A stretch of 64,000 nucleotides of DNA from Spirochaetaceae bacterium (lineage in GTDB: Bacteria > Spirochaetota > Spirochaetia > Treponematales > Breznakiellaceae). The notes under the pieces are model-generated. The model saw nothing but the letters and a program-made list of their open reading frames with translations. It searched no databases and was not told the origin of the DNA. Positions 8,492-41,379 of this stretch are shown one piece after another (within the stretch, counting starts at the first letter, position 1; each line of letters opens with the position of its first letter). The position numbers and the translations under genes were made by a program. The stretch lies in the NCBI GenBank assembly GCA_031275945.1, contig JAISOA010000004.1, positions 1 to 64,000 of the forward strand, read 5' to 3'.

Positions 8492-10799
8492 ATTCCTTTT
8501 CCCCGGCCCGATTCGCAAGACGGTTCGCATGGCTGGGGAAAGGCCCCTGTATTTTTGGCCCCCGGTTTTTTCCCTGGCCTTTTTTCTTTTTTTGTACGGA
8601 TTTTGCCGGTTTTCTCCCTATGGGGCCCTAAATGCCTTTTTGGAACGGCCCTGGAGTACCCGGTACTACGATCGCCGGGGAAACCTGGTTCAGATCCTGC
8701 CGCTGGAAGAGGGGTTGCGCCGGGAATATGCCGGCCCCGATGCCATAGACCCCGGGATCGCGGCGGTATTTCTGAGCGCTGAAGACGAGCGCTTTTACTA
8801 CCATCCGGGGATCGATCCCCTTTCGGTACTGCGGGCCTTTTCCCAAAATATTAAAGAGCGCCGGCGGGTAAGCGGAGCCTCTACCATCACCATGCAACTG
8901 GCACGGATCATCACCGCTCGGCCCCAAGAGCCCCGGGACCTTTTTACCAAGATGGGTGAAACCCTTAATGCGTTTCGCCTTGAAGCCCGGTTTTCAAAAA
9001 AAGAGATACTTAATCTGTACCTTAACTCCCTGCCCTTCGGGTTTCAAACCGAAGGGCTTGCTTCGGCGGCCCGGAATTTTTTTGCTTTGGAAATTTCCCT
9101 TCTTTCTCCGGCGGAGCTTTTCTGCCTGGCGGTTATTCCCCGCCGGCCCGCGGCGTATAATCCCTTTACCGATCGGGAAGCCTGCATTGACGCGGCCCAA
9201 AGGCTGGCGGCGCGGTTTGCCCGGAGCCCCGGGGCCCGGGATTTCCCCTCCTATGCCGCCCTGGAAGCAGGGGACTGGGAGGCCCTTAGCCCCCGCCGTT
9301 TCCAATATCCCCAGTACATGCCCCATCTGGTCCGGCATGTAAACGGCATGCTTGCGGAGCTCCGGGCCGGAAACAAAAACGCTCCGCATTCGGATTATGT
9401 TCTTTCCGCGGATCTGGAACTTCAACGCTTTGCCGAGGACCTTATCGGGGGCCATATCCGCCGCCATTCCTTGTCCCGGCTTAACAACGGGGCCGCGCTG
9501 GTACTTGATAATAAAACCGGGGAGGTTTTAGCCTGGGTCGGCAGCGCCGATTACTATAACCAAAGAACCTTGGGCCAAATTGACGGTGTGCTGGCGGAAA
9601 ATCAGATGGGAAGCAGCATGAAACCCTTTCTCTATGCCCTGGCCCTGGAACGGGGCTTTAAGCCCTCGGACGTGCTGGCGGATATTCCTTCTAAATACGG
9701 AAGCCAGGAAGTGTATATCCCTCAAAATTTCAACAACCGTTTTAACGGCCCCGTTCTGTTCCGGACCGCCCTGGCTTCCAGCCTGAACATTCCGGCGGTG
9801 GATCTGTTGTACCGCCTGGGGGTAGAGGAGTACCTGCGGTTTCTTTCCACCCTGGGTTTTAACTTTAGTGCCGGGGTCGCGGAACATGCAGGTCTGGGCC
9901 TGGCGCTGGGGAATGCCCCGGTAAAGCTTGCGGAAATGGCCGCGGGGTTTAGTGTTTTTCCCCGGGACGGGATATTTCTTCCCCTGCGCTTTGAACGGGG
10001 GGAGGAACAGGAATATGCCGGTGACCGGGTAATGAACAGCGACACCGCCCGGCTTGTGTGTTCGATCCTCTCGGATCGCGGGGCACGGGTTTTGGCTTTT
10101 GGCAGGGGGACGAATTTTGAAACCCCCTTTCCCGCGATGTTTAAAACCGGTACGGCCAACCAATACCAGAATATAATTGCCCTGGGGGCCACCCCCCGCT
10201 TTACCGTGGCGGTTTGGATGGGAAATTTTACCGGCGAGACCGTGGTGGGCCGAACCGGCAGTTCCCTTCCGGCCGCGGTAGTACGGCAACTGCTTGTCCG
10301 GTTGCAGGGAAACCGGGGGGAATCCTTTCTTGAACCCCAGGGCTGGGTTAAAACCCCGGTGTGTGCCCTTTCGGGAATGGCCCCCACCGCCGCCTGCCCC
10401 TCGGTAATAGAAGAGTATCTGCCCCTGGACTGGGCCGGAGAAAGCTGCGGCTGGCATGCGATCCGGGGTTCTTCGGTGGAGGTAACATATCCCCCGGAGT
10501 ACCAAGGCTGGTTTTTTTCCCAACCCAGGGAAGGAACCATAAATTATTCGGCGTCTCCCCTGGAAATTATCAGCCCCCGGGATAACTATACGTTTTTCCC
10601 CTCCTCCGGGACGGGAATCCAGAGTATACCGGTAGAGGTTATCGGCGGCCTTAACGGCATAATTACCGTGGATTACGATGGCGAAACCTTTACCGTATCC
10701 CGGCCCTTTGTGTTTTTTCTTCCCTATACTCCGGGACGCCACAGTCTTAGGGTGCGTAACGGCGATGAGACCGCAGCGGTGCATTTTATTGCCGAATAG
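8439..10799 (+). CDS. pbpC: penicillin-binding protein 1C (bifunctional PBP)
   Basis: A 786-residue class A PBP. After a basic N-terminus and one membrane anchor (about residues 35-55) comes a glycosyltransferase domain with EDERFYYHPGID and GASTITMQLAR. The transpeptidase domain has all three motifs: SSMK (S392, K395), SLN in ALASSLNIPAVD, and KTGT near 569-572. A C-terminal beta domain (about 690-786) matches the PBP1C-specific extension. It polymerises and crosslinks peptidoglycan on the periplasmic side. The start lies inside the A2M gene, so the pair should be translationally linked; ATG 8529 (MAGERPLYF) is an alternative start that keeps the membrane segment. In several bacteria PBP1C is encoded next to an A2M, as here. 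Confidence 0.92.
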   Translation: MKRKYLAGPRAFCTRLNKFLFPGPIRKTVRMAGERPLYFWPPVFSLAFFLFLYGFCRFSPYGALNAFLERPWSTRYYDRRGNLVQILPLEEGLRREYAGPDAIDPGIAAVFLSAEDERFYYHPGIDPLSVLRAFSQNIKERRRVSGASTITMQLARIITARPQEPRDLFTKMGETLNAFRLEARFSKKEILNLYLNSLPFGFQTEGLASAARNFFALEISLLSPAELFCLAVIPRRPAAYNPFTDREACIDAAQRLAARFARSPGARDFPSYAALEAGDWEALSPRRFQYPQYMPHLVRHVNGMLAELRAGNKNAPHSDYVLSADLELQRFAEDLIGGHIRRHSLSRLNNGAALVLDNKTGEVLAWVGSADYYNQRTLGQIDGVLAENQMGSSMKPFLYALALERGFKPSDVLADIPSKYGSQEVYIPQNFNNRFNGPVLFRTALASSLNIPAVDLLYRLGVEEYLRFLSTLGFNFSAGVAEHAGLGLALGNAPVKLAEMAAGFSVFPRDGIFLPLRFERGEEQEYAGDRVMNSDTARLVCSILSDRGARVLAFGRGTNFETPFPAMFKTGTANQYQNIIALGATPRFTVAVWMGNFTGETVVGRTGSSLPAAVVRQLLVRLQGNRGESFLEPQGWVKTPVCALSGMAPTAACPSVIEEYLPLDWAGESCGWHAIRGSSVEVTYPPEYQGWFFSQPREGTINYSASPLEIISPRDNYTFFPSSGTGIQSIPVEVIGGLNGIITVDYDGETFTVSRPFVFFLPYTPGRHSLRVRNGDETAAVHFIAE

Positions 10800-10813
10800 A
10801 CTATGATTAGCCT

Positions 10814-12082
10814 ATGGGCATGAACGACACTCCCCTGGCCGGCAGGGTGCATATCGGCTTCTTTGGAAAAAGAAACGCCGGTAAGTCGAGCCTGGTAAAT
10901 GCCGTCACGGGCCAGGATCTGGCGGTGGTTTCCCCCGTTAAGGGCACCACCACGGACAGCGTTTCCAAAGCCATGGAACTTCTTCCCCTGGGGCCGGTTC
11001 TTATTATCGACACCCCCGGATTTGACGATACGGGAACCCTGGGGGAACTTCGGGTACGAAGGGCAAAGCAAACCCTCAATAAAACCGATGTGGCGGTGCT
11101 GGTGGTGGACGCCCAGGAGGGCGCCCTAGCCAAGGCGGACAGGGAACTTATTTCTATATTTCAGGCAAAAGAGGTCCCCTACATTATAGCCTGGAACAAA
11201 AGCGATGTAATCCGGAATAAGACCCCGCCCCTCCGGGCTGCTGCGGCGCCCCTGGAAGATTCCGCACCCCATTTTCCCGGCTCTGCGTTTCCGCAGGAAC
11301 TGTTTGTGTCGGCAAAGACCGGCGAAAATATTCCCCAACTAAAAGAGCGTATCGCCGCCCTGGCAAAGACCGGGGAGCCGAAATTGCAAATTGTGGGGGA
11401 TCTTATTCACCCCGGGGACTTTGTGGTGCTGGTAATCCCCATCGACAAAGCGGCCCCAAAGGGACGGCTGATCCTTCCCCAGCAGCAGACCATCCGGGAT
11501 CTGCTGGAGGCGGACGGAACCGCCGTTGTGGTTAAAGAATTTGAACTGCGGGAAACCCTGGAACAGCTGGGGAAAAAGCCCGCCTTGGTAATCACCGACA
11601 GCCAGGTCGTTGCCAAGGTTTCCGCCGACACTCCCCCGGACATACCTCTTACCTCTTTTTCCATACTCTTTGCCCGGCTTAAGGGCTTTCTTCTGCCCGC
11701 GGTCCGGGGAGTCCGGGTTCTCGACACGGTTGGGGACGAGGATCCGATCCTGGTCTGTGAGGGCTGTACCCATCACCGGCAGTGTGATGACATAGGAACG
11801 GTAAAGCTTCCCCGGTGGATTCGCCAGTATACGGGGAAAACCCCCCGCTTTGTTTTTACCTCCGGCGGGGATTTTCCCGAGGATCTTTCCGCCTACAAGC
11901 TGATCCTCCACTGCGGGGCCTGCATGCTTAACGAACGGGAAATGAAGTATCGCCGGGATTGCGCGGCGGATCAGGGCATACCCTTTACTAACTATGGAAT
12001 TACCATTGCCCATATTCAGGGCATACTCCGCCGGAGCCTTCAGGTGTTTCCCCACATACTTGCGGAGCTTGAAGAGCCCTAA
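10814..12082 (+). CDS. hydF: [FeFe]-hydrogenase H-cluster maturation GTPase HydF
   Basis: A 422-residue cytoplasmic GTPase that acts as scaffold for the 2Fe subcluster of [FeFe] hydrogenase. The N-terminal Era-like domain has GKRNAGKSS (P-loop), a TTT switch, DTPG and NKSD. The C-terminal cluster-binding domain has CTHHRQCDD and HCGACM, which supply the HydF-specific Cys/His ligands. It starts 14 nt after pbpC without a strong Shine-Dalgarno (ATG 10820 is an alternative) and may be read from the upstream operon. Its presence implies [FeFe] hydrogenase, hydE and hydG elsewhere in the genome, fitting an H2-producing or H2-using anaerobe. Confidence 0.95.
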   Translation: MGMNDTPLAGRVHIGFFGKRNAGKSSLVNAVTGQDLAVVSPVKGTTTDSVSKAMELLPLGPVLIIDTPGFDDTGTLGELRVRRAKQTLNKTDVAVLVVDAQEGALAKADRELISIFQAKEVPYIIAWNKSDVIRNKTPPLRAAAAPLEDSAPHFPGSAFPQELFVSAKTGENIPQLKERIAALAKTGEPKLQIVGDLIHPGDFVVLVIPIDKAAPKGRLILPQQQTIRDLLEADGTAVVVKEFELRETLEQLGKKPALVITDSQVVAKVSADTPPDIPLTSFSILFARLKGFLLPAVRGVRVLDTVGDEDPILVCEGCTHHRQCDDIGTVKLPRWIRQYTGKTPRFVFTSGGDFPEDLSAYKLILHCGACMLNEREMKYRRDCAADQGIPFTNYGITIAHIQGILRRSLQVFPHILAELEEP

Positions 12083-33749: not shown

Positions 33750-34598
33750 ATGGACGCATTGGGGTATTATAACGGAACGTGGGGCCCGCTGGATAAAATG
33801 ACGGTGCCCATGAATGATCGCGGGTGTTACTTTGGAGACGGCGTGTACGACGCCGCAATCTGCTATAAAAAGACGATTTACCTGCTGGACAATCATGTAC
33901 AAAGATTTTTTAATAGTGCCGGACTTTTGGAAATTACCCTGGATTTTACCCGGGAAGAGCTAAAATCGATCCTGGGCGATCTGGTGGCCAAGGTTGATCC
34001 GGAAGAGGTACTGGTTTATTGGCAGGCAACCCGGGGGACCGGCAGGCGCAACCATGCGTTTCCCGGGGGCAGATCCAACCTGTGGGTAATGATTAAAGCG
34101 GCCTCTGTGGCCGATTTACGCAAAAAGGTTAAACTTATTACCCGGGAAGACACGCGTTTTCTGCACTGCAACATTAAGACCCTTAACCTTATCCCCAATG
34201 TTGTTGCGGCCCAAAGGGCCCTGGAAGCGGGGGCCCACGAAACGGTATTTCACCGGGGCAATATTGTAACCGAATGCGCCCACAGCAATGTACATATTAT
34301 CAAAGACGGGAAATTTATTACCCACCCTGCGGATAAATATATACTGCCGGGAATTGCCCGAAGCCGTCTTGTCCAGGTTTGCGGAAAGCTTGGGGTTCCG
34401 GTGGAAGAACGGGAATTTACGGTGGATGAACTTTTTAACGCCGGCGAAGTGCTTATCTCAAGTACCAGTACCTTTGGCCTGGGGGTGGATTGTATTGACG
34501 GTAAACCCGTGGGCGGCAAAGCGCCGGAACTGCTTAAAAAAATTCAGGATCAGCTGATGCGGGATTTTTCCGAAGCCACCGGTTACCCCGGGGCATAA
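33750..34598 (+). CDS. class IV aminotransferase, probably D-amino-acid transaminase
   Basis: 282 residues from ATG 33750, fixed by GGAGGTGA. Fold-type IV PLP enzyme: NDRGCYFGDGVYDA at the N-terminus, the PLP lysine in CNIKTLNLIPNV, the Glu in NIVTECAHSNV, and LPGIARSRL. The pattern resembles D-alanine/D-glutamate transaminase (Dat) more than branched-chain transaminase, though the family is hard to split by eye. It would move amino groups between D-amino acids and 2-oxoglutarate, giving D-glutamate. It leads the cluster with the D-glutamate cyclase halves and 5-oxoprolinase, which favours the D-specific reading. Confidence 0.82.
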   Translation: MDALGYYNGTWGPLDKMTVPMNDRGCYFGDGVYDAAICYKKTIYLLDNHVQRFFNSAGLLEITLDFTREELKSILGDLVAKVDPEEVLVYWQATRGTGRRNHAFPGGRSNLWVMIKAASVADLRKKVKLITREDTRFLHCNIKTLNLIPNVVAAQRALEAGAHETVFHRGNIVTECAHSNVHIIKDGKFITHPADKYILPGIARSRLVQVCGKLGVPVEEREFTVDELFNAGEVLISSTSTFGLGVDCIDGKPVGGKAPELLKKIQDQLMRDFSEATGYPGA

Positions 34599-34599
34599 C

Positions 34600-35718
34600 A
34601 TGACCCAGATGGAATTAACCCGGTACAGCCTGGGAAAAACTTTTGACAATCTTATGAACATTGATCCCCGGGGCTACGGCGTATGCGCTATTCTTTACGA
34701 CGGAGCCCTGGAGCTTAGCGGCGGGGACCCCCTGACGATGCATGCCGCAGACAGGCTGCTTTCGGTCCTTAAAGAAGGGGACAGGGTTTGTATTATCACC
34801 GGCTTTGTCCTGCATCCCTTTAACAAGCAGGAAACCGACGGCCCCGTCGGAGCCGCGGCCCTGGCCCGTACTCTGGTGCGCGCCCGCGGCGTAAAACCCG
34901 TATTCATTGTGCCGGAAGAAGCCGGGCCCGCCATGGAACGGCTTTCGGCCCTGATGGAATTTTCCGCGGAAACCCTGGTATTTACCAAAGATGCCGTCAA
35001 GGCTTCCCAAGAAGCGGACCGTATAGCCCGGGGAAAGTCTCCCGCCTTCTGTATTGCCATTGAAGCGGCGGGGGCAAACAGCAGGGGGGTATACCACAAT
35101 GCCCTGGGAATTGACGTAAGCGCCCTGGAGGCAAAAAGCGATGTACTTTTTAACCGGCTTCAAAAAGAAGGGGTTCCCACCCTGGCCATAGGGGATCTGG
35201 GAAACGAATGCGGCATGGGCGCCCTGGGTTCCCATGCGGCCCGGTATATTCCCTATGCGGCGGAATGTTCCTGCGGCTGCGGCGGCGGGGCCGCGGCCCT
35301 TTCCCGTGCAGATACGGTGCTTACCGCTACGGTCTCGAATTGGGGGGCCTGGGGAATTGCCTCCGCCATTGCATGGCTTACCCGGGACCTCCGGGCCTTG
35401 TATTCCCCGGAACTGGAAGAACGGGCCCTGGGGGCGGCCAACGAATGCGGCCTTATCGACATGTACGGTAAGGCAATTCCCGCGGTGGACGGCATGGATA
35501 TTGAAAAAAACAAGGCTATTATTACCTTAATGAACGGATCTGTCCAATCCGCACTGGAACTTGAAGGAACCTGCAGGGTCTGGTTTGAGAAAACTATTGC
35601 CGGGGGTTTTTTTACGTTTTTGCCCCGGGATAGGTCCGGCAAAAAGGGCGGGGGGGGCTTTGAAACCCCGGCGTTTCCTTCCGCCGGAACACCGGCCGCC
35701 GCCGCTTTCGGGATCTGA
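34600..35718 (+). CDS. DUF4392 protein, C-terminal half of D-glutamate cyclase
   Basis: 372 residues, no signal or membrane segment. Segments typical of DUF4392 are ITGFVLHPFNKQETDGPVGA, CIAIEAAGANSRGVYHNALG and IGDLGNECGMGAL, with the Cys-rich CSCGCGGG. In animals DUF4392 is fused behind DUF1445 in D-glutamate cyclase (DGLUCY), which turns D-glutamate into 5-oxo-D-proline. Here the DUF1445 half is encoded three genes downstream. It starts 1 nt after the aminotransferase stop. The last ~25 residues (GKKGGGGFETPAFPSAGT) are low complexity and encoded around a run of eight G, so the tail could vary. Confidence 0.82.
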   Translation: MTQMELTRYSLGKTFDNLMNIDPRGYGVCAILYDGALELSGGDPLTMHAADRLLSVLKEGDRVCIITGFVLHPFNKQETDGPVGAAALARTLVRARGVKPVFIVPEEAGPAMERLSALMEFSAETLVFTKDAVKASQEADRIARGKSPAFCIAIEAAGANSRGVYHNALGIDVSALEAKSDVLFNRLQKEGVPTLAIGDLGNECGMGALGSHAARYIPYAAECSCGCGGGAAALSRADTVLTATVSNWGAWGIASAIAWLTRDLRALYSPELEERALGAANECGLIDMYGKAIPAVDGMDIEKNKAIITLMNGSVQSALELEGTCRVWFEKTIAGGFFTFLPRDRSGKKGGGGFETPAFPSAGTPAAAAFGI

Positions 35719-35721
35719 TCC

Positions 35722-36486
35722 ATGGACATATATCCCGCAGGGGACGGTGCCCTTTGTGTGGAATTCGGGCGGACAATTTCTGCGGAACTGAATGACCGGG
35801 TTCATGCCCTGGCGGGGCTTCTGCAGGATAGGCCCCTTCCGGGGGTGCTGGATCTTGTTCCTGCGTACGCGTCCCTCCTGGTGTGCTTTGATCCCCTGTG
35901 TATTTCCTCCCGGTCCCTTCGGGCGGCCCTTTGGCGGCGGGTAAAAGAAGCCGGGAATACCGGCTTTGGATCCCGCGAAACGGTTTATATTCCGGTCTGT
36001 TACGACGAACCCTTTTCTCCGGATATGGAAAAGGTTGCGGCCCATACGGGCCTTTCCCCCTGGGACATAATCAGCCGTCATACAAAGCCGGTGTACCGGA
36101 TCTATATGCTGGGATTTTTGCCGGGCTTTCCCTACCTGGGGGGCCTGGACCCCGTCCTGGAAACACCCCGGCTTGCAAAGCCCCGGATAAAGATCCCCGC
36201 CGGTGCGGTGGGCATCGGCGGGGCCCAGACGGGGATCTATCCCCTGGAATCTCCCGGGGGCTGGAACTTAATCGGTCAAACCCCGGTTAGGCCCTACGAT
36301 CCCCGGCGGGAAAATCCGTTTTTATACCGCCCAGGGGATTGTATCGTATTTTATCCGGTAAGTCCCGGGGAATACGGTGATATTGCCGGGGCCGTAGAAA
36401 ACGGAAGCTTTTTCTGTCCCCGCAAAGCCGTTGTACCGGCGGGCCCGGCGGCGGAAGCCTCCCGAAGGAGCCGCCTGTGGGCATGA
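35722..36486 (+). CDS. pxpB: 5-oxoprolinase subunit B (PxpB/KipI)
   Basis: 254 residues. Family signatures: YMLGFLPGFPYLGGLD, IKIPAGAVGIGGAQTGIYP and SPGGWNLIGQTP. PxpB and PxpC together with PxpA form the prokaryotic ATP-dependent 5-oxoprolinase, converting 5-oxoproline to glutamate. In Bacillus the homologue KipI also inhibits a sporulation kinase; that role is not expected here. It starts 3 nt after the DUF4392 gene and overlaps pxpC. Confidence 0.93.
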   Translation: MDIYPAGDGALCVEFGRTISAELNDRVHALAGLLQDRPLPGVLDLVPAYASLLVCFDPLCISSRSLRAALWRRVKEAGNTGFGSRETVYIPVCYDEPFSPDMEKVAAHTGLSPWDIISRHTKPVYRIYMLGFLPGFPYLGGLDPVLETPRLAKPRIKIPAGAVGIGGAQTGIYPLESPGGWNLIGQTPVRPYDPRRENPFLYRPGDCIVFYPVSPGEYGDIAGAVENGSFFCPRKAVVPAGPAAEASRRSRLWA

Positions 36487-37457
36487 CCGTGATCGATCCG
36501 GGCTTTCTTACCACCGTTCAGGACCAGGGGCGAAGGGGATATATGGACAGGGGCTTTTCCCCCGCCGGCGCCCTGGACGGCTTTTCCTTTAGGCTTGCAA
36601 ACTTTCTTGTGGGAAATCCCCTGGAGGAGGCGGCGCTGGAAATTACCCTCCGGGGCCCTTCTATGATGTTTGACGGCGCCGGATTTATCGCCCTTACAGG
36701 AGCGGATATACAGCCCCTGCTTAACGGAAAACCCCTGGCCATGAACCGTTCCGCGGCGGTTGCACCGGGGGACATCCTCTATACCTCCTTTGCGCTCTGC
36801 GGCCTGCGGAGTTACCTTGCCGTCGCAGGGGGCTTGGATATTGCCAAGGTCTTGGGGAGCCGTTCCACAAACCTTAAAGCCCGCCTGGGGGGCTTTAAGG
36901 GAAGAAAACTTGAATCGCAGGACCATATTAAATTTCCCCGGATTCCCCCGGGGGAACATGGCATTCAGAGCTGTGAAGGCAGATCCTTTGTGCCCCCCCG
37001 GCGGGGAATTTTGAAGGGCCTTGGACTAATCCGCCCGTACACCCCAGCGGAGCCCCTGCTCCTTCATGTAGCGGAAGGCAGGCAGGCGCGGCTTTTTAGC
37101 CTCCGGGGGCTTCGTACTTTTTACGGATCTCTGTATACGGTGGAAAACGACAGCGACCGTATGGGGATACGCCTGGAGGGTCCCGCAGTGGCTGCCGCGG
37201 GAGATGCCGGCATTGTGTCCGACGGCATAGCCCTGGGGGCAGTCCAGGTTCCCGGATCGGGAAAGCCGATTGTCCTTTTACACGACCGGCAAACCACCGG
37301 GGGCTATGCAAAGATAGGAGCCGTTATTACCCGGGATCTGTGGCTTTTGGCCCAGGCCCCGGGGGGATCGGCGGTCCGTTTTAAGCGAATAGATCCCCGG
37401 CGGGCAGAAAGGATCTATATCAAAACCGAAAAAACAATTAAACTTCTTATGAGCTAA
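36477..37457 (+). CDS. pxpC: 5-oxoprolinase subunit C (PxpC/KipA)
   Basis: 326 residues. Biotin-carboxylase-like PxpC pattern: FLTTVQDQGRRGYMDRGFSP, ALTGADIQPLLNG and YLAVAGGLD. The usual C-terminal TTGGYAKIGAVI is intact. GTG 36477 is 6 nt from AAGGAG; ATG 36483, overlapping the pxpB stop as ATGA, is the alternative. Acts as a complex with PxpB. There is a 56-nt gap to the DUF1445 gene. Confidence 0.92.
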   Translation: MGMTVIDPGFLTTVQDQGRRGYMDRGFSPAGALDGFSFRLANFLVGNPLEEAALEITLRGPSMMFDGAGFIALTGADIQPLLNGKPLAMNRSAAVAPGDILYTSFALCGLRSYLAVAGGLDIAKVLGSRSTNLKARLGGFKGRKLESQDHIKFPRIPPGEHGIQSCEGRSFVPPRRGILKGLGLIRPYTPAEPLLLHVAEGRQARLFSLRGLRTFYGSLYTVENDSDRMGIRLEGPAVAAAGDAGIVSDGIALGAVQVPGSGKPIVLLHDRQTTGGYAKIGAVITRDLWLLAQAPGGSAVRFKRIDPRRAERIYIKTEKTIKLLMS

Positions 37458-37513
37458 TTCTACCTGCTTGGGTTATGATCTTGAGGGGGTCGATCCGGTT
37501 ATAAGGACAAACT

Positions 37514-38296
37514 ATGGACTATGCAAAATCAGCTCCCCGTGAAGTCCGGGCCCTTATCAGGGCAGAGAAAATTACCGGCCATACATCGGGGATGTGTGAT
37601 GGATACGCCCAGGCAAATCTGGCGGTTCTTCCTGCGGAATATGCCTACGATTTTCTTCTTTTTACCCAGCGGAATCCCAAAAGTTGCCCGGTGCTGGAAG
37701 TAAGCGACAGGGGAAGCCGCAGCCTAAAAAAAATTGCCCCCGGCGCGGATATTGCCCGGGATATTCCCAGGTACCGGATCTATAAAAACGGCGTTCCGGA
37801 GGGGGAATATACGGATGTGTCAAAATTTTGGCGCGAAGACTTTGTAAGTTTTCTTATCGGATGCAGTTTTTCCTTTGAATCGGAGCTCATCGCCGGCGAT
37901 ATTCCCGTGCGCCACATTGAAGAGGGTAAAAACGTTCCCATGTACATAACAAACATTGACTGCGAAAGCGCCGGGATCTTCCACGGAAAAATGGTGGTAA
38001 GCATGCGGCCCCTTTTGCCGGAATTGGCGGTTAGGGCGGTAACCCTTACCGCCGCCATGCCCCGGGTTCACGGCGCCCCCGTTCATATCGGAGATCCGGA
38101 GAGCATTGGAATCGGCGATATTGCCAGGCCTGATTTTGGCGATCCGGTAACGATAAAGCAGGGAGAAACCCCTGTGTTTTGGGCCTGCGGCGTCACCCCC
38201 CAGTCGGTGATCATGAGCGCAAAACCCTCAATCGCTATCACCCATGCGCCGGGGCATATGCTTATTACGGATATAAAAAACGTGCTTTTAAAGTAG
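37514..38296 (+). CDS. DUF1445 (YcsI) protein, N-terminal half of D-glutamate cyclase
   Basis: 260 residues, the normal length for stand-alone DUF1445. Conserved stretches: RALIRAEKITGHTSGMCDGY, FLLFTQRNPKSCP, FLIGCSFSFESEL, MYITNIDCESAG and ITHAPGHMLITD. Bacterial members are usually annotated as putative hydro-lyases; the animal fusion with DUF4392 is a D-glutamate cyclase. Bacillus ycsI lies in the kip/pxp operon, the same linkage as here. AAGGA precedes the ATG. Expected to be cytoplasmic. Confidence 0.88.
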   Translation: MDYAKSAPREVRALIRAEKITGHTSGMCDGYAQANLAVLPAEYAYDFLLFTQRNPKSCPVLEVSDRGSRSLKKIAPGADIARDIPRYRIYKNGVPEGEYTDVSKFWREDFVSFLIGCSFSFESELIAGDIPVRHIEEGKNVPMYITNIDCESAGIFHGKMVVSMRPLLPELAVRAVTLTAAMPRVHGAPVHIGDPESIGIGDIARPDFGDPVTIKQGETPVFWACGVTPQSVIMSAKPSIAITHAPGHMLITDIKNVLLK

Positions 38297-38435
38297 CGTT
38301 GTTTAAAAATTAGAATTGTTCGGAAGCTTCAGTTTTCCGGACAAATTCCGCTAAAAATTGCAATTTTGCAGCCCTAGGGCGAGAAATTGCAAGACCAGTG
38401 AGACAAGCAACCGGGTTGTTGAAATACATCCAATA
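38297..38435 (-). repeat. degraded three-palindrome repeat before pxpA
   Basis: It keeps the order of the reverse-oriented element (GTTGTTTAAAAA, then CTTCAGTTTT, CCGCTAAAAATTGCA, then CAACCGGGTTGTTGAAA), but each palindrome has changed or gained inserts. TTGCAATTT...AAATTGCAA with GCCC/GGGC inside is a new compensating stem. Old or divergent copy; boundaries are approximate. Confidence 0.6.
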
Positions 38436-38447
38436 GAGGTTTAGGGT
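38419..38447 (+). promoter_or_regulatory. candidate promoter of pxpA inside the degraded repeat
   Basis: TTGAAA (38419-38424), a 17-nt spacer and TAGGGT (38442-38447), 10 nt before the ATG. The -35 is formed by the repeat's GGGTTGTTGAAA end. Confidence 0.4.
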
Positions 38448-38457
38448 TTGGAATTTC

Positions 38458-39231
38458 ATGACAAGGGTTGATGTAAACTGCGATCTGGGGGAAAGCTTTG
38501 GCCCCTGGAAAATGGGCCGGGATGAAGAAATTATTCCCCTGGTTTCTTCCGCCAATATTGCCTGCGGTTTCCATGGGGGGGATCCCCTGGTAATGCAGAG
38601 GACCGTTGCTCTGGTTAAAAAGCACGGTGTGGCGGCGGGAGCCCATCCCGGCTTTCCCGACTTGGCGGGGTTCGGAAGGCGATATATGGGCCTTTACCCC
38701 GAGGAAGTTAAAGCCGCGGTACAGTACCAGATCGGCGCCCTGGACGGGTTTTGCCGGGCCGCAGGCATTCCTCTGGTCCACGTAAAACCCCATGGGGCGC
38801 TTTACAATATGGCGGCCAAGGATATGAATTTGGCCCGGGCAATTGCAGAGGCGGTAAAAGAAATAAACCCCCGGCTTATCCTGCTTGTGCTGGCGGGAAG
38901 CTGCATGGCCGCCGCGGCAAAAGAGGCGGGGCTTGCCGCTGCCCAGGAAGTTTTCGCGGACCGCGCGTATGAAGAAGACGGATCCCTTTCTCCGCGCACC
39001 AAGCCCGGTTCAATGATCACCTGCGAAGATGAAGCTCTAAGCCGGGTGGTGGGTATGATACAGACCGGAAAGGTCCGCGCCATCACCGGCAAAGAAATCT
39101 CCGTTACGGCAGATTCGGTCTGTATCCATGGCGACAATGAAAAGGCCCTGGTGTTTGCGCAGAAACTTACCGGGGCATTTGCCCGGGAGGGAATTTCCGT
39201 GGTTCCCCTTTCGCAGATCTGCGGGGTTTAA
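38458..39231 (+). CDS. pxpA: 5-oxoprolinase subunit A (PxpA/LamB-YcsF family)
   Basis: 257 residues. Strong family pattern: VDVNCDLGESFGPW, ANIACGFHGGDP, GAHPGFPDLAGFGRR, HVKPHGALYN and EVFADRAYEEDGSL. PxpA binds 5-oxoproline and opens the ring with PxpBC and ATP. It is separated from the DUF1445 gene by 161 nt of repeat with its own likely promoter, so it may be expressed partly on its own. Its stop overlaps the stop of the convergent deacetylase gene. Confidence 0.95.
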   Translation: MTRVDVNCDLGESFGPWKMGRDEEIIPLVSSANIACGFHGGDPLVMQRTVALVKKHGVAAGAHPGFPDLAGFGRRYMGLYPEEVKAAVQYQIGALDGFCRAAGIPLVHVKPHGALYNMAAKDMNLARAIAEAVKEINPRLILLVLAGSCMAAAAKEAGLAAAQEVFADRAYEEDGSLSPRTKPGSMITCEDEALSRVVGMIQTGKVRAITGKEISVTADSVCIHGDNEKALVFAQKLTGAFAREGISVVPLSQICGV

Positions 39232-40505
39232 AAATCTGCCGGTCCTTCGCCGGATCCGGCCTGTCGAAGGCTCCTAAGAAAATGCCCGGCGGGTTCCCAG
39301 GCCCGTTCTCCATAACCCCCGGCCTGGATCCATGCGGAGGGAATGCCCCGGTCCACGGCATACCGGTATACCAGACGGTCCCGCCGCAGGCACTGGTTTA
39401 AGGTAAGTTTAAGAAGGGCACTTGAAGGAAGACCGTCGTGTTCATACGGGTCCGCCCCGTCCACCACCAGTATAAGATCCGGATTCTGCCCCCGCCGTTC
39501 CGCGGAGATGCGTTCCAGGCGGCCGATGCCCTCCTTAAGCCGGGGGATATACTCCGCCTCTTCCCCTCTGGCTATGCCGATGTCCACGTCCGAAGGCGCC
39601 AGGGGCGCCCGGCCCGGAACCGCCCCTGTGAGGGTTTCTTCGTCCAGGGGCCAGCCCCGGGCCATGTGAATTGACAGGGTAAGGATCCGGGGCTTGCAGC
39701 TTTCCCTGTTTCCCGCACCGGCTCCGCCTTGTTCATGGACCATGCGGATTAGTTCGGCGGTTCCGTCCCCCTTGTGGGCGTCCAGATCTATGATCCATAT
39801 AAGGCGCACCGGGTTTTTTTTTCCAAGCAGTTCAGGTGGATCCCGTAAGATCTTTACCGCGGCGATGGACACATCGTTGATCAGGCAGAAACCCGATCCC
39901 GATTCATACCGGGCATGGTGCATACCCCCCCCCAGGTAGTAGCAAAAACCCGGTCCCGGAGACAGGGCAAGCCGGCAGGCAAGGTACGTACCGGCCGTCT
40001 GGGCCAGAAGAAGTTTAAACAGTTCCGCCAGGGGTTTTACGGCCTTCTCAGGCTCGTAGCGGTGGGGCCTTCCCTGGGGATCAAGAAGTTCGTATGCCCG
40101 GAGCAGTTCCCGTTCCAAAGGCCCCTGTACCGTATGCGCCCCCGGTGTACCGGCTTCCCCCGCATCTGCTGCGGAATTTTTCCGGTGATTTCCCCCAGGG
40201 TTTCCGTAGAGGGCGGCGATAAAGTCCCTGTGGTGAACCCGTTCCAGATCCTGCCGGGAAATCACCGCCGCCTGTTCCCCCTCCGGTTCCGGAATACCGG
40301 CCCCTAAGCCCGCGGCTTCCAGGTACTGTATGGCGCCGGTGATGGTAAAAACCGGTCCGGGATAGGGCAGGGTGTTTCCCCGGGTGCCGGGGAAAAAATG
40401 CTTTTCCAGAAATTCCAGAACCCGCTCCGCCCGGTTTGGCGCGATGGGGAGCATGATGCCGTAATCCCGAAAGCGGATAGCAAGGGATGGATCGCTGAGT
40501 ATCAC
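39228..40505 (-). CDS. histone-deacetylase-fold (AcuC/APAH-like) hydrolase
   Basis: 425 residues; starts at GTG 40505 with GGAGG 8 nt upstream. Arginase/HDAC fold: HHRDF, the active-site YYLGGGMHHARY, GFCLINDVSIAA, the Zn ligands in IIDLDAHKGDGT, and VVDGADPYEHDGL. Bacterial members deacetylate acetylated proteins, polyamines or other small amides. It is longer than AcuC-type (~380) because of inserts near residues 100-150 and 240. Convergent with pxpA (stops overlap), so it is not in that operon. Substrate unknown. Confidence 0.85.
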   Translation of the reverse strand: MILSDPSLAIRFRDYGIMLPIAPNRAERVLEFLEKHFFPGTRGNTLPYPGPVFTITGAIQYLEAAGLGAGIPEPEGEQAAVISRQDLERVHHRDFIAALYGNPGGNHRKNSAADAGEAGTPGAHTVQGPLERELLRAYELLDPQGRPHRYEPEKAVKPLAELFKLLLAQTAGTYLACRLALSPGPGFCYYLGGGMHHARYESGSGFCLINDVSIAAVKILRDPPELLGKKNPVRLIWIIDLDAHKGDGTAELIRMVHEQGGAGAGNRESCKPRILTLSIHMARGWPLDEETLTGAVPGRAPLAPSDVDIGIARGEEAEYIPRLKEGIGRLERISAERRGQNPDLILVVDGADPYEHDGLPSSALLKLTLNQCLRRDRLVYRYAVDRGIPSAWIQAGGYGERAWEPAGHFLRSLRQAGSGEGPADF

Positions 40506-40608: not shown

Positions 40609-41379
40609 ATGGCGGACATAGTTAGCCTTATTCCCTATAATTTAGATATCCGGCAATTGGCGGCGCTTATGGCGGGCTGTATTTGTTTTGGCATCTCAAA
40701 GACGGGGCTTAACGGTATCTCTATTATCGCAGTTCCTCTGTTTGCCCTGGTATTCGGCGCCAAGGAATCCACCGGTTTGGTGCTGCCCCTAATCTGTTTT
40801 GCCGATCTATTTGCGGTGATCTACTACCGCCGTCATGCGGAATGGAATTATATATGGCCCCTTATTCCCTGGGCTTTAGCAGGCTTTGCCTTGGCCCTGG
40901 GGGCGGATCATTTTATCCATACAAACCGGGGTTTTAAAATTCTTATCGGTATCTGTGTCATTGCCGGTCTTATCGTAATGGTGTGGAACGAACTGCGGAA
41001 CCGGGAGGGCGCAAAACTTTCCGGAGGATTGGGAATTGCGGCATTCTTTGGCATCATGGGGGGCTTTTCTACTATGATAGGCAACGCCGCAGGTCCCATC
41101 ATGTCGGTGTTTCTCCTTTCGGTCCGGCTGCCCAAGGAAAGTTTTGTGGGAACCGCGGCCTGGTTTTTCCTTATCGTTAATTATCTTAAAATCCCCCTGC
41201 AAACCCTGGTGTGGCACAATATCTCTCTACGGACCCTGTGGTTCGATCTGTATATGGTGCCCTTTATCCTCTTAGGAATGGGTTTGGGCATTCTTTTTGT
41301 GAAGGGAGTGAATAATAACCAGTACCGCATCATTACATGTGCCCTGACGTTTGTCTCGGCGGTGCTGTTGTTCCTGTAG
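40609..41379 (+). CDS. TauE/SafE-family membrane exporter
   Basis: 256 residues with about eight hydrophobic helices in two repeats, each containing the family-like G(I/F)SKTGLNG (residues ~27-35) and GNAAGPIMSVFLL segments. The family moves sulfite, sulfonates or other organic anions. TAAAAT (40598-40603) ends 5 nt before the ATG with no Shine-Dalgarno and no clear -35, another leaderless-looking start. The shikimate kinase gene follows directly. Substrate unknown. Confidence 0.82.
   Translation: MADIVSLIPYNLDIRQLAALMAGCICFGISKTGLNGISIIAVPLFALVFGAKESTGLVLPLICFADLFAVIYYRRHAEWNYIWPLIPWALAGFALALGADHFIHTNRGFKILIGICVIAGLIVMVWNELRNREGAKLSGGLGIAAFFGIMGGFSTMIGNAAGPIMSVFLLSVRLPKESFVGTAAWFFLIVNYLKIPLQTLVWHNISLRTLWFDLYMVPFILLGMGLGILFVKGVNNNQYRIITCALTFVSAVLLFL

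Follow-up and report, generated by a model that had tools for sequence, protein, structure and literature searches.

A six-gene operon of D-amino-acid transaminase, DUF4392, DUF1445 and 5-oxoprolinase genes accompanies the absence of detectable glutamate racemase in a spirochaete family

Peptidoglycan requires D-glutamate, and glutamate racemase (MurI) is a studied antibacterial target. In some bacteria, a D-amino-acid transaminase (DAAT) can replace MurI as the source of D-glutamate. We analyzed a 64,000-nucleotide stretch of DNA from a Spirochaetaceae bacterium (GCA_031275945.1, contig JAISOA010000004.1, positions 1–64,000 of the forward strand; hereafter, the window), in which a DAAT-type gene heads a cluster of DUF4392, DUF1445 and 5-oxoprolinase (PxpABC) genes at positions 33750–39231. 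This operon is real and conserved, and it is a variant on known D-glutamate cyclase and 5-oxoprolinase themes; what is chiefly new is its association with the lack of a detectable glutamate racemase. Among the matches listed from open-licence PubMed Central, we found no description of the six-gene operon, which is weak evidence of absence. As for the closest described systems, a murI dat double mutant has been reported to be a D-glutamate auxotroph (PMC9963018). Recombinant mouse DGLUCY (9030617O03Rik/C14orf159), a fusion of DUF1445 and DUF4392, was reported to convert D-glutamate into 5-oxo-D-proline, with no L-glutamate formed (PMC5339696). PxpABC has been described as opening 5-oxoproline to glutamate (PMC13274462, PMC10448178). 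In gut bacteria, GLUCM_HUMAN was reported to have 0 full-length and 6 split homologues, split denoting adjacent genes (PMC11580864). A relative of DUF4392 with a determined structure is TON_0340 from Thermococcus onnurineus (PDB 4dwz, 4fc5, 5gkx, 5gl2–5gl4), which was described as having six acidic metal ligands, and the same work reports that archaea have no DUF1445 relatives (PMC5132392).

The cluster consists of six open reading frames (ORFs) in one orientation (+), separated by exactly 1, 3, −10, 56 and 161 nt, and the arrangement given in the initial annotation was confirmed by ORF coordinates, Pfam and NCBIfam. All six proteins were assigned by Pfam, with E values from 1.2e-40 to 6.8e-103. 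The first gene (33750..34598, +) encodes a class IV aminotransferase of the DAAT type (Aminotran_4, PF01063, E 1.2e-40; best NCBIfam model TIGR01121); its start was placed at ATG 33750, with GGAGG just upstream, and the longest ORF begins at TTG 33651. The second (34600..35718, +) encodes a DUF4392 protein of the long CxCxC form (now GLUCM-like_C, PF14336, E 1.2e-77), which matched zero NCBIfam models. The 5-oxoprolinase subunits are all encoded in the cluster: PxpB of the KipI family (35722..36486, +; CT_C_D, PF02682; TIGR00370 over cut-off), a PxpC-like subunit of the KipA family (36477..37457, +; CT_A_B, PF02626) whose start lies 10 nt inside pxpB, and PxpA of the LamB/YcsF family (38458..39231, +; LamB_YcsF, PF03746; over the cut-off of the subfamily-level model NF003814). 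The PxpC-like protein passed TIGR00724, the 5-oxoprolinase/urea-amidolyase domain model, and failed the PxpC equivalog NF045499 (222.9 of 500 bits). Between PxpC and PxpA lies a DUF1445/UPF0317 gene of the Bacillus YcsI family (37514..38296, +; D-Glu_cyclase, PF07286, the "D-glutamate cyclase" of Pfam), which passed NF003969, "putative hydro-lyase".

The Bacillus kip operon has the order pxpA-ycsG-ycsI-kipI-kipA, with YcsI as the DUF1445 protein. In both the Bacillus and the window operon, PxpA, PxpB, PxpC and DUF1445 (YcsI) are encoded together (PMC10448178). The window operon differs from it in having DAAT and DUF4392 instead of an NRAMP transporter or biotin carboxylase, and both kinds of operon occur in the family; Pfam scans of the six genes, the preceding LptB gene and the three following genes revealed no NRAMP (YcsG/MntG) gene. 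With animal DGLUCY, the operon shares the domain families DUF4392 (PF14336) and DUF1445 (PF07286), here as separate genes of one operon, DUF4392 being second, DUF1445 fifth, and PxpB and PxpC lying between them; cyclase activity is predicted here. Regarding the split homologues of gut bacteria, the available part of PMC11580864 names no transaminase, adjoining pxp genes or link to MurI. Compared with the known cases in which DAAT stands in for MurI, the transaminase gene here is the first of an operon that also contains 5-oxoproline genes, and the same pattern extends across a spirochaete family.

The distribution of the operon was examined from DUF4392 outward (G and L numbers are our own handles for genomes and loci). 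A DUF4392 alignment was scanned against named bacterial and archaeal genomes, the best 80 of at least 551 loci were taken, and their ORFs were searched with the window proteins. The 36 nearest loci (L011–L046) belong to Bacillota, and 44 more (L047–L090) are more distant. In the Bacillota set, a pxp gene adjoined DUF4392 in 33 of 36 loci, 26 of which also had the transaminase, and all six genes stood in the window order in 19 of 36, some of the others ending at contig ends. Within the family of the window, the six-gene order was found in 7 of 11 loci, the window included, and several of the others were cut by contig ends. This recurrence indicates that the linkage is not due to chance, and that the six genes are a conserved operon; the association of DUF4392 with pxp genes in other genomes, on which the initial annotation had partly depended, was thus borne out by the survey. 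Of 198 genomes sampled from the whole phylum, two had PF14336, one being that of the window; in the family, 11 of 145 had it, and these span 6 of 56 genera.

The surroundings of DUF4392 varied outside the six-gene order. Among the 36 Bacillota loci, 11 had an alanine racemase gene next to genes of the operon; 10 had Liv-type amino-acid ABC transporter genes upstream and 5 an upstream Lrp/AsnC-type regulator, with one member of each kind typed. Genome G185, from the bacterial class of the window, carries the rearranged order DUF1445-DUF4392-PxpB-PxpA-PxpC-class IV aminotransferase-alanine racemase, and G444 carries a DUF1445-DUF4392-Pxp grouping. In L021 (DUF4392 9001–10023, alanine racemase 10033–11193) and L039 (8992–10065 and 10082–11224), alanine racemase lies directly 3′ of DUF4392; these two Bacillota loci have no pxp genes or transaminase in view, and their genomes lack a MurI match. 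No pxp gene was in view in the 44 distant loci, some of which are short, and DUF1445 was nearby in four of them. On eight proteobacterial plasmids inspected, DUF4392 had different neighbours, among them aldehyde dehydrogenases, aminotransferases of other kinds, and transporters of the TRAP or tricarboxylate type.

MurI was searched with TIGR00067, and a strict set was defined by dropping six genomes (G557, G571, G601, G603, G641 and G657) whose best E value was worse than 1e-5. A match was present in 189 of 198 phylum genomes and in 150 of the 151 high-quality ones, and in the family in only 97 of 145. None of the 11 family genomes with DUF4392 had a match, compared with 97 of the 134 others (Fisher p 2e-6), and the strict set gave 0 of 11 against 91 of 134 (p 9e-6); at the genus level, MurI was found in 0 of 6 genera with DUF4392 and 44 of 50 without (p 2.8e-5), although most genomes are incomplete and the kinship of the 11 carriers inflates the significance of these tests. 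The chance that incompleteness alone hid MurI in all 11 was about 3e-10 when gaps were taken as independent, and one of the carriers, G550, is a closed single contig of 99% completeness. MurD, the enzyme that consumes D-glutamate, exceeded its cut-off in 12 of 13 genomes tested, namely 10 of the 11 carriers together with G528 and G577, and the exception, G626 (59% complete), gave weaker hits only. In the genome of the window (G000, 82.6% complete), MurD scored 325 bits, DAAT was present, and no TIGR00067 match was found, a search that does not cover bifunctional DapF-like sources; a bifunctional DapF has been reported from Chlamydia (PMC5885031). In the DUF4392 tree, the 11 spirochaete copies clustered in a single clade next to a single Bacillota clade, and the MurI state changed at least 7 times over the two. 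MurI loss looks repeated over this gene tree as a whole, and possibly single within the spirochaetes.

The transaminase itself showed a related pattern. We defined DAAT as relatives at least 52% identical to the window transaminase, which excluded G194, G617 and G638 (33–34% identity), and the genome lists for these comparisons were copied by hand from the search outputs. Strict MurI occurred in 8 of the 41 family genomes (out of 145) with DAAT and in 83 of the 104 without (p 2e-11); adding the three excluded genomes gave 11 of 44 against 80 of 101 (p 1e-9), and leaving out the DUF4392 operon carriers gave 8 of 31 against 83 of 103. These results indicate that the presence of DAAT and that of MurI tend to be mutually exclusive across the family, and this distribution upheld the earlier proposal that the cluster goes with D-glutamate metabolism. 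When 20 of the 31 DAAT genomes without DUF4392 were inspected, no pxp, DUF1445 or DUF4392 gene was in view, several of these loci lying near a contig end. Two such genomes, G528 and G577, belong to the genus of the operon carrier G609; their transaminases are 76–80% identical to that of the window, MurD is present, and no PF14336, PxpA or MurI match was found in them. As a separate observation, G535, a genome with the transaminase, contains a MurI match broken by one TGA (G535:C14:3414-4073), perhaps a decaying racemase gene.

We then compared the transaminase with the enzyme bsDAAT, whose carboxylate trap was reported as Y31, R98* and H100* (PMC10003956). Numbered from the ATG, residues Y33, R100, H102, K143 and E175 of the window protein match the bsDAAT trap and catalytic lysine, and the trap triad was present in 11 of 12 rows of the transaminase alignment A4. 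The exception was the row of G185, whose aminotransferase lacks the D-type trap and matched a branched-chain model best, below cut-off. A branched-chain aminotransferase was considered for the window gene and rejected, the best branched-chain model scoring 126 bits against 236 for the D-type model, with the trap present. By its residues, gene 1 is predicted to be an aminotransferase of the D-amino-acid type with a canonical Y/R/H trap, in agreement with the initial annotation.

The DUF4392 protein carries E78, D80, E155, D199, E203 and D297 at the positions of the six acidic metal ligands of TON_0340, and these residues were invariant in 30 of 30 rows of alignment A3. Its predicted model (pLDDT 90.7) superposed on TON_0340 with Z 36.8 and 1.9 Å over 268 residues, at 26–28% identity in the structure alignment, a figure that refers to TON_0340 and not to an animal sequence; the next fold matches were RecJ and RecJ-like DHH proteins (Z 10–11). 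Fold and metal ligands are thus shared with TON_0340, which differs in being archaeal and in lacking the CxCxC segment. In the window protein this segment comprises C223, C225 and C227. It was invariant in 21 of 21 rows of alignment A6, and 24 of the 30 rows of A3 have it. Besides the operon copies, its carriers include some distant relatives from archaea and bacteria that lack the operon, and it is absent from the short forms of G185 and G444. The motif possibly forms a second metal or cluster site in the long form. The DUF1445 protein is 52% identical to 2pif and 3db9, members of its own family (Z 34.3 and 30.5). Outside that family, its fold was closest to the nitrogen repressor-like MJ0159 (3nek; Z 9.7, 165 residues, 12% identity), followed by the PII-like SbtB (Z 6.4). 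NrpR-type proteins sense 2-oxoglutarate. This likeness of fold hints that DUF1445 may bind a glutamate-like ligand, and is no proof of activity. As to the suggestion that DUF4392 and DUF1445 are the separate halves of animal D-glutamate cyclase, the presence of the same two families in one operon stands, and the long CxCxC form and low identity to TON_0340 weaken the equivalence; the role of DUF1445 as a cyclase half is further qualified by its occurrence with PxpABC in the absence of DUF4392, in two family genomes and on plasmids.

Sequence and genome counts establish the gene identities, the conserved operon, the DAAT-type active site, and undetected MurI with MurD present; the directions in which the transaminase and the 5-oxoproline arm run, the cyclase activity, and the step from the D ring to L-glutamate are inferred. 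The cluster would be a D-glutamate module, in which DAAT replaces MurI and the other five proteins adjust the D-glutamate pool through 5-oxoproline. DAAT would convert D-alanine and 2-oxoglutarate into D-glutamate and pyruvate in the place of MurI, and this D-glutamate would feed MurD for peptidoglycan. Surplus D-glutamate would be converted into 5-oxo-D-proline by DUF4392, perhaps together with DUF1445, and PxpABC would open 5-oxoproline to glutamate at the expense of ATP, so that draining or recycling of D-glutamate through 5-oxoproline may fill a role otherwise filled by the reversible MurI. The D ring might reach L-glutamate through a lax PxpABC or a racemisation. Because cyclising and reopening on the same hand would be futile, we consider three options: PxpABC may take the D ring with a different product, one member may change the hand, or the DUF4392 step may itself open the ring. 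The candidate for changing the hand would be DUF1445, the member without an assigned step, and the results for mouse DGLUCY argue against racemase activity of the DUF1445 domain in animals. The first part of this reading, DAAT making D-glutamate from D-alanine in place of MurI, is well supported, and we give the reading as a whole an even chance of being right. In its favour we count the alanine racemase, a source of D-alanine, near operon genes in Bacillota and G185, the intact TON_0340-type metal site, and the retention of DAAT without the operon in MurI-less G528 and G577.

Several observations weigh against the D-glutamate module. Cyclisation followed by ATP-driven reopening is futile unless the stereochemistry changes, and the activity published for TON_0340 is that of a Mn-dependent phosphatase and not of a cyclase (PMC5132392). 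The window transaminase scored 236 bits with TIGR01121, the best of 19 NCBIfam models, under the cut-off of 277.45; its relatives in G550, L011 and L127 likewise fell below. Ten of the 11 DUF4392 genomes are drafts of 59–92% completeness, and because the 11 spirochaete copies form one clade, one gain of DUF4392 and one loss of MurI may underlie them all. Neither DAAT nor strict MurI was found in 21 of the 145 family genomes, so that other D-glutamate sources or assembly gaps exist. In G541 (91% complete), DUF4392-PxpB-PxpC-DUF1445-PxpA follows lptB intact, the transaminase gene being absent from between them, and the genome has no MurI match and no relative of the window transaminase at E 1e-10. 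Its single class IV aminotransferase, typed to the level of PF01063 and presumed to be IlvE, belongs to a longer kind, which is present as a second copy in 9 of the 13 other genomes searched. In the class sample, MurI over cut-off was lacking in 2 of 11 DUF4392 carriers, one of them the chosen centre, which is no excess; operons of the window kind occurred in 4 of these 11 (G212, G401, G406 and G476), and both MurI-lacking genomes were among them (2 of 4). G185 carries both the rearranged operon and MurI. Bacillota operons with Liv-type genes also retained MurI more often than those without (8 of 10 against 8 of 26; p 0.011), so that the role of the operon is not uniform, and a catabolic module is more likely for these Liv-associated operons.

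The other Bacillota counts concern the same question. MurI was below cut-off in 20 of the 36 Bacillota genomes, which were picked by similarity, compared with 48 of 291 in the class sample; many of the 36 are metagenome-assembled genomes without stated completeness, and the racemase model gave weaker, partial matches in 10 of the 20. Loci adjoining an alanine racemase gene had MurI in 2 of 10 cases against 14 of 26 others (p 0.13), or 3 of 11 against 13 of 25 when L042, an alanine racemase locus with MurI, was added. The DUF4392 tree contains too few independent pairs to test Liv or alanine racemase as predictors of MurI.

If the 5-oxoproline arm ran in the opposite direction, both 5-oxoprolines would be opened: PxpABC would use ATP to open the L form, a DUF4392/DUF1445 hydrolase would open the D form, and the transaminase would shuttle nitrogen between D-glutamate and D-alanine. 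This scheme, which we regard as unlikely, needs no racemisation and so closes the stereochemical gap, and the metal site of DUF4392 could activate water, judging from the TON_0340 description (PMC5132392). The five genes kept by G541 with neither DAAT nor MurI and the Liv-type importer genes upstream of 10 Bacillota loci also fit it. Against it, the only relative measured, mouse DGLUCY, makes 5-oxo-D-proline from D-glutamate (PMC5339696), and in other pxp operons of the family an NRAMP-type gene takes the place of DUF4392 and the transaminase. The initial annotation had proposed salvage or control of D-glutamate. In the salvage reading, D-glutamate would collect the nitrogen of D-amino acids, and its cyclisation and the reopening of the ring would yield L-glutamate as a source of nitrogen or carbon. 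The same Liv-type genes, in genomes that retain MurI in 8 of 10 cases, and the Lrp/AsnC-type regulator of five Bacillota loci agree with salvage. In the family, however, every genome with the operon lacks a MurI match, MurI-less G528 and G577 retain DAAT without its partner genes, and neither the 11 family loci nor G185 yielded a Liv-type binding protein or permease (no search was made for transporters of other kinds). Given that the operon lies in genomes without detectable MurI, salvage is probably not the main role here, and D-glutamate supply is; the link to D-glutamate was retained from the earlier proposal, and salvage as the purpose of the cluster now appears quite unlikely to us.

Two further explanations have a slim chance each. 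PxpABC and DUF1445 might mend spontaneously formed 5-oxo-L-proline while DUF4392 acts on some other phosphorylated small molecule, leaving the D-glutamate link indirect. The weak Mn-dependent phosphatase activity reported for TON_0340 (PMC5132392), the RecJ and RecJ-like fold matches, and the occurrence of PxpABC and DUF1445 without DUF4392 are consistent with such repair, but it leaves the MurI pattern unexplained, and G185 reassembles DUF4392, DUF1445, Pxp, a class IV aminotransferase and alanine racemase in another order, as G444 does DUF1445, DUF4392 and Pxp. A comparably small probability attaches to the view that the set DUF4392-PxpB-PxpC-DUF1445-PxpA itself supplies D-glutamate, by making or opening 5-oxo-D-proline, with no need for MurI or the transaminase. 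It draws on G541 and on L021 and L039, where DUF4392 and alanine racemase occur in MurI-less genomes with no nearby pxp gene.

A second kind of 5-oxoprolinase operon was also present. PxpA was found without DUF4392 in seven family genomes. Of these, G604 has the six-gene kind, cut down to a fragment by its contig, and G586 has the order biotin carboxylase-PxpA-NRAMP-PxpB-PxpC-DUF1445, its two extra genes being typed by Pfam; by eye from the sequences, G649 has the same gene set, G591, G601 and G610 have parts of it (G610 without DUF1445), and G558 is distant. MurI was over cut-off in G586, G591 and G558 and not in G601, G610 and G649, and with this even split the NRAMP kind is not tied to MurI either way. 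Four of eight plasmid and phage comparison records contained NRAMP, PxpA, PxpBC (fused or separate) and biotin carboxylase, three of the four with DUF1445; the remaining four differ or have no annotation in the region. These operons indicate that DUF1445 can accompany PxpABC without DUF4392, and that DUF4392 and the transaminase define the kind found in the window. Loci L146, L149, L153, L156 and L157 are pxp operons with an NRAMP-type transporter and biotin carboxylase, sometimes a biotin-carrier gene, and often DUF1445. The 328 kb record L159 bears the label Acinetobacter phage MD-2021a; in it, an NRAMP-PxpA-DUF1445-KipI-biotin carboxylase operon stands amid metabolic genes, and the record appears to be a bacterial contig under a wrong label. 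A D-form-specialised PxpABC forming its own clade was not supported: a PxpA tree grouped most operon copies, but a Lactiplantibacillus copy of the NRAMP/biotin-carboxylase kind fell among them. This tree was made by a quick method with weak support, and L145 is labelled in it as another pxp operon though it is a contig fragment of the six-gene kind.

Downstream of the window operon lie a histone-deacetylase-family protein (39228–40505, −) and a TauE/SafE permease (40609–41376, +), an arrangement shared with G574 of the same genus and not seen in the other family loci inspected. Searches for Rfam families, riboswitches included, near the operon in five sources (the window, L016, L022, L031 and L113) returned only three tRNAs. 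Promoter-like and terminator-like sites were about as frequent as in shuffled sequence, and a 38-base segment of the 161-nt gap before PxpA had no second copy within the window.

The operon offers bacterial, separately expressible forms of both domain families of animal D-glutamate cyclase, in which their roles and the D/L question are testable. For the organisms themselves, a widespread operon that accompanies the absence of MurI in one spirochaete family names genes for a MurI-free supply or control of D-glutamate.

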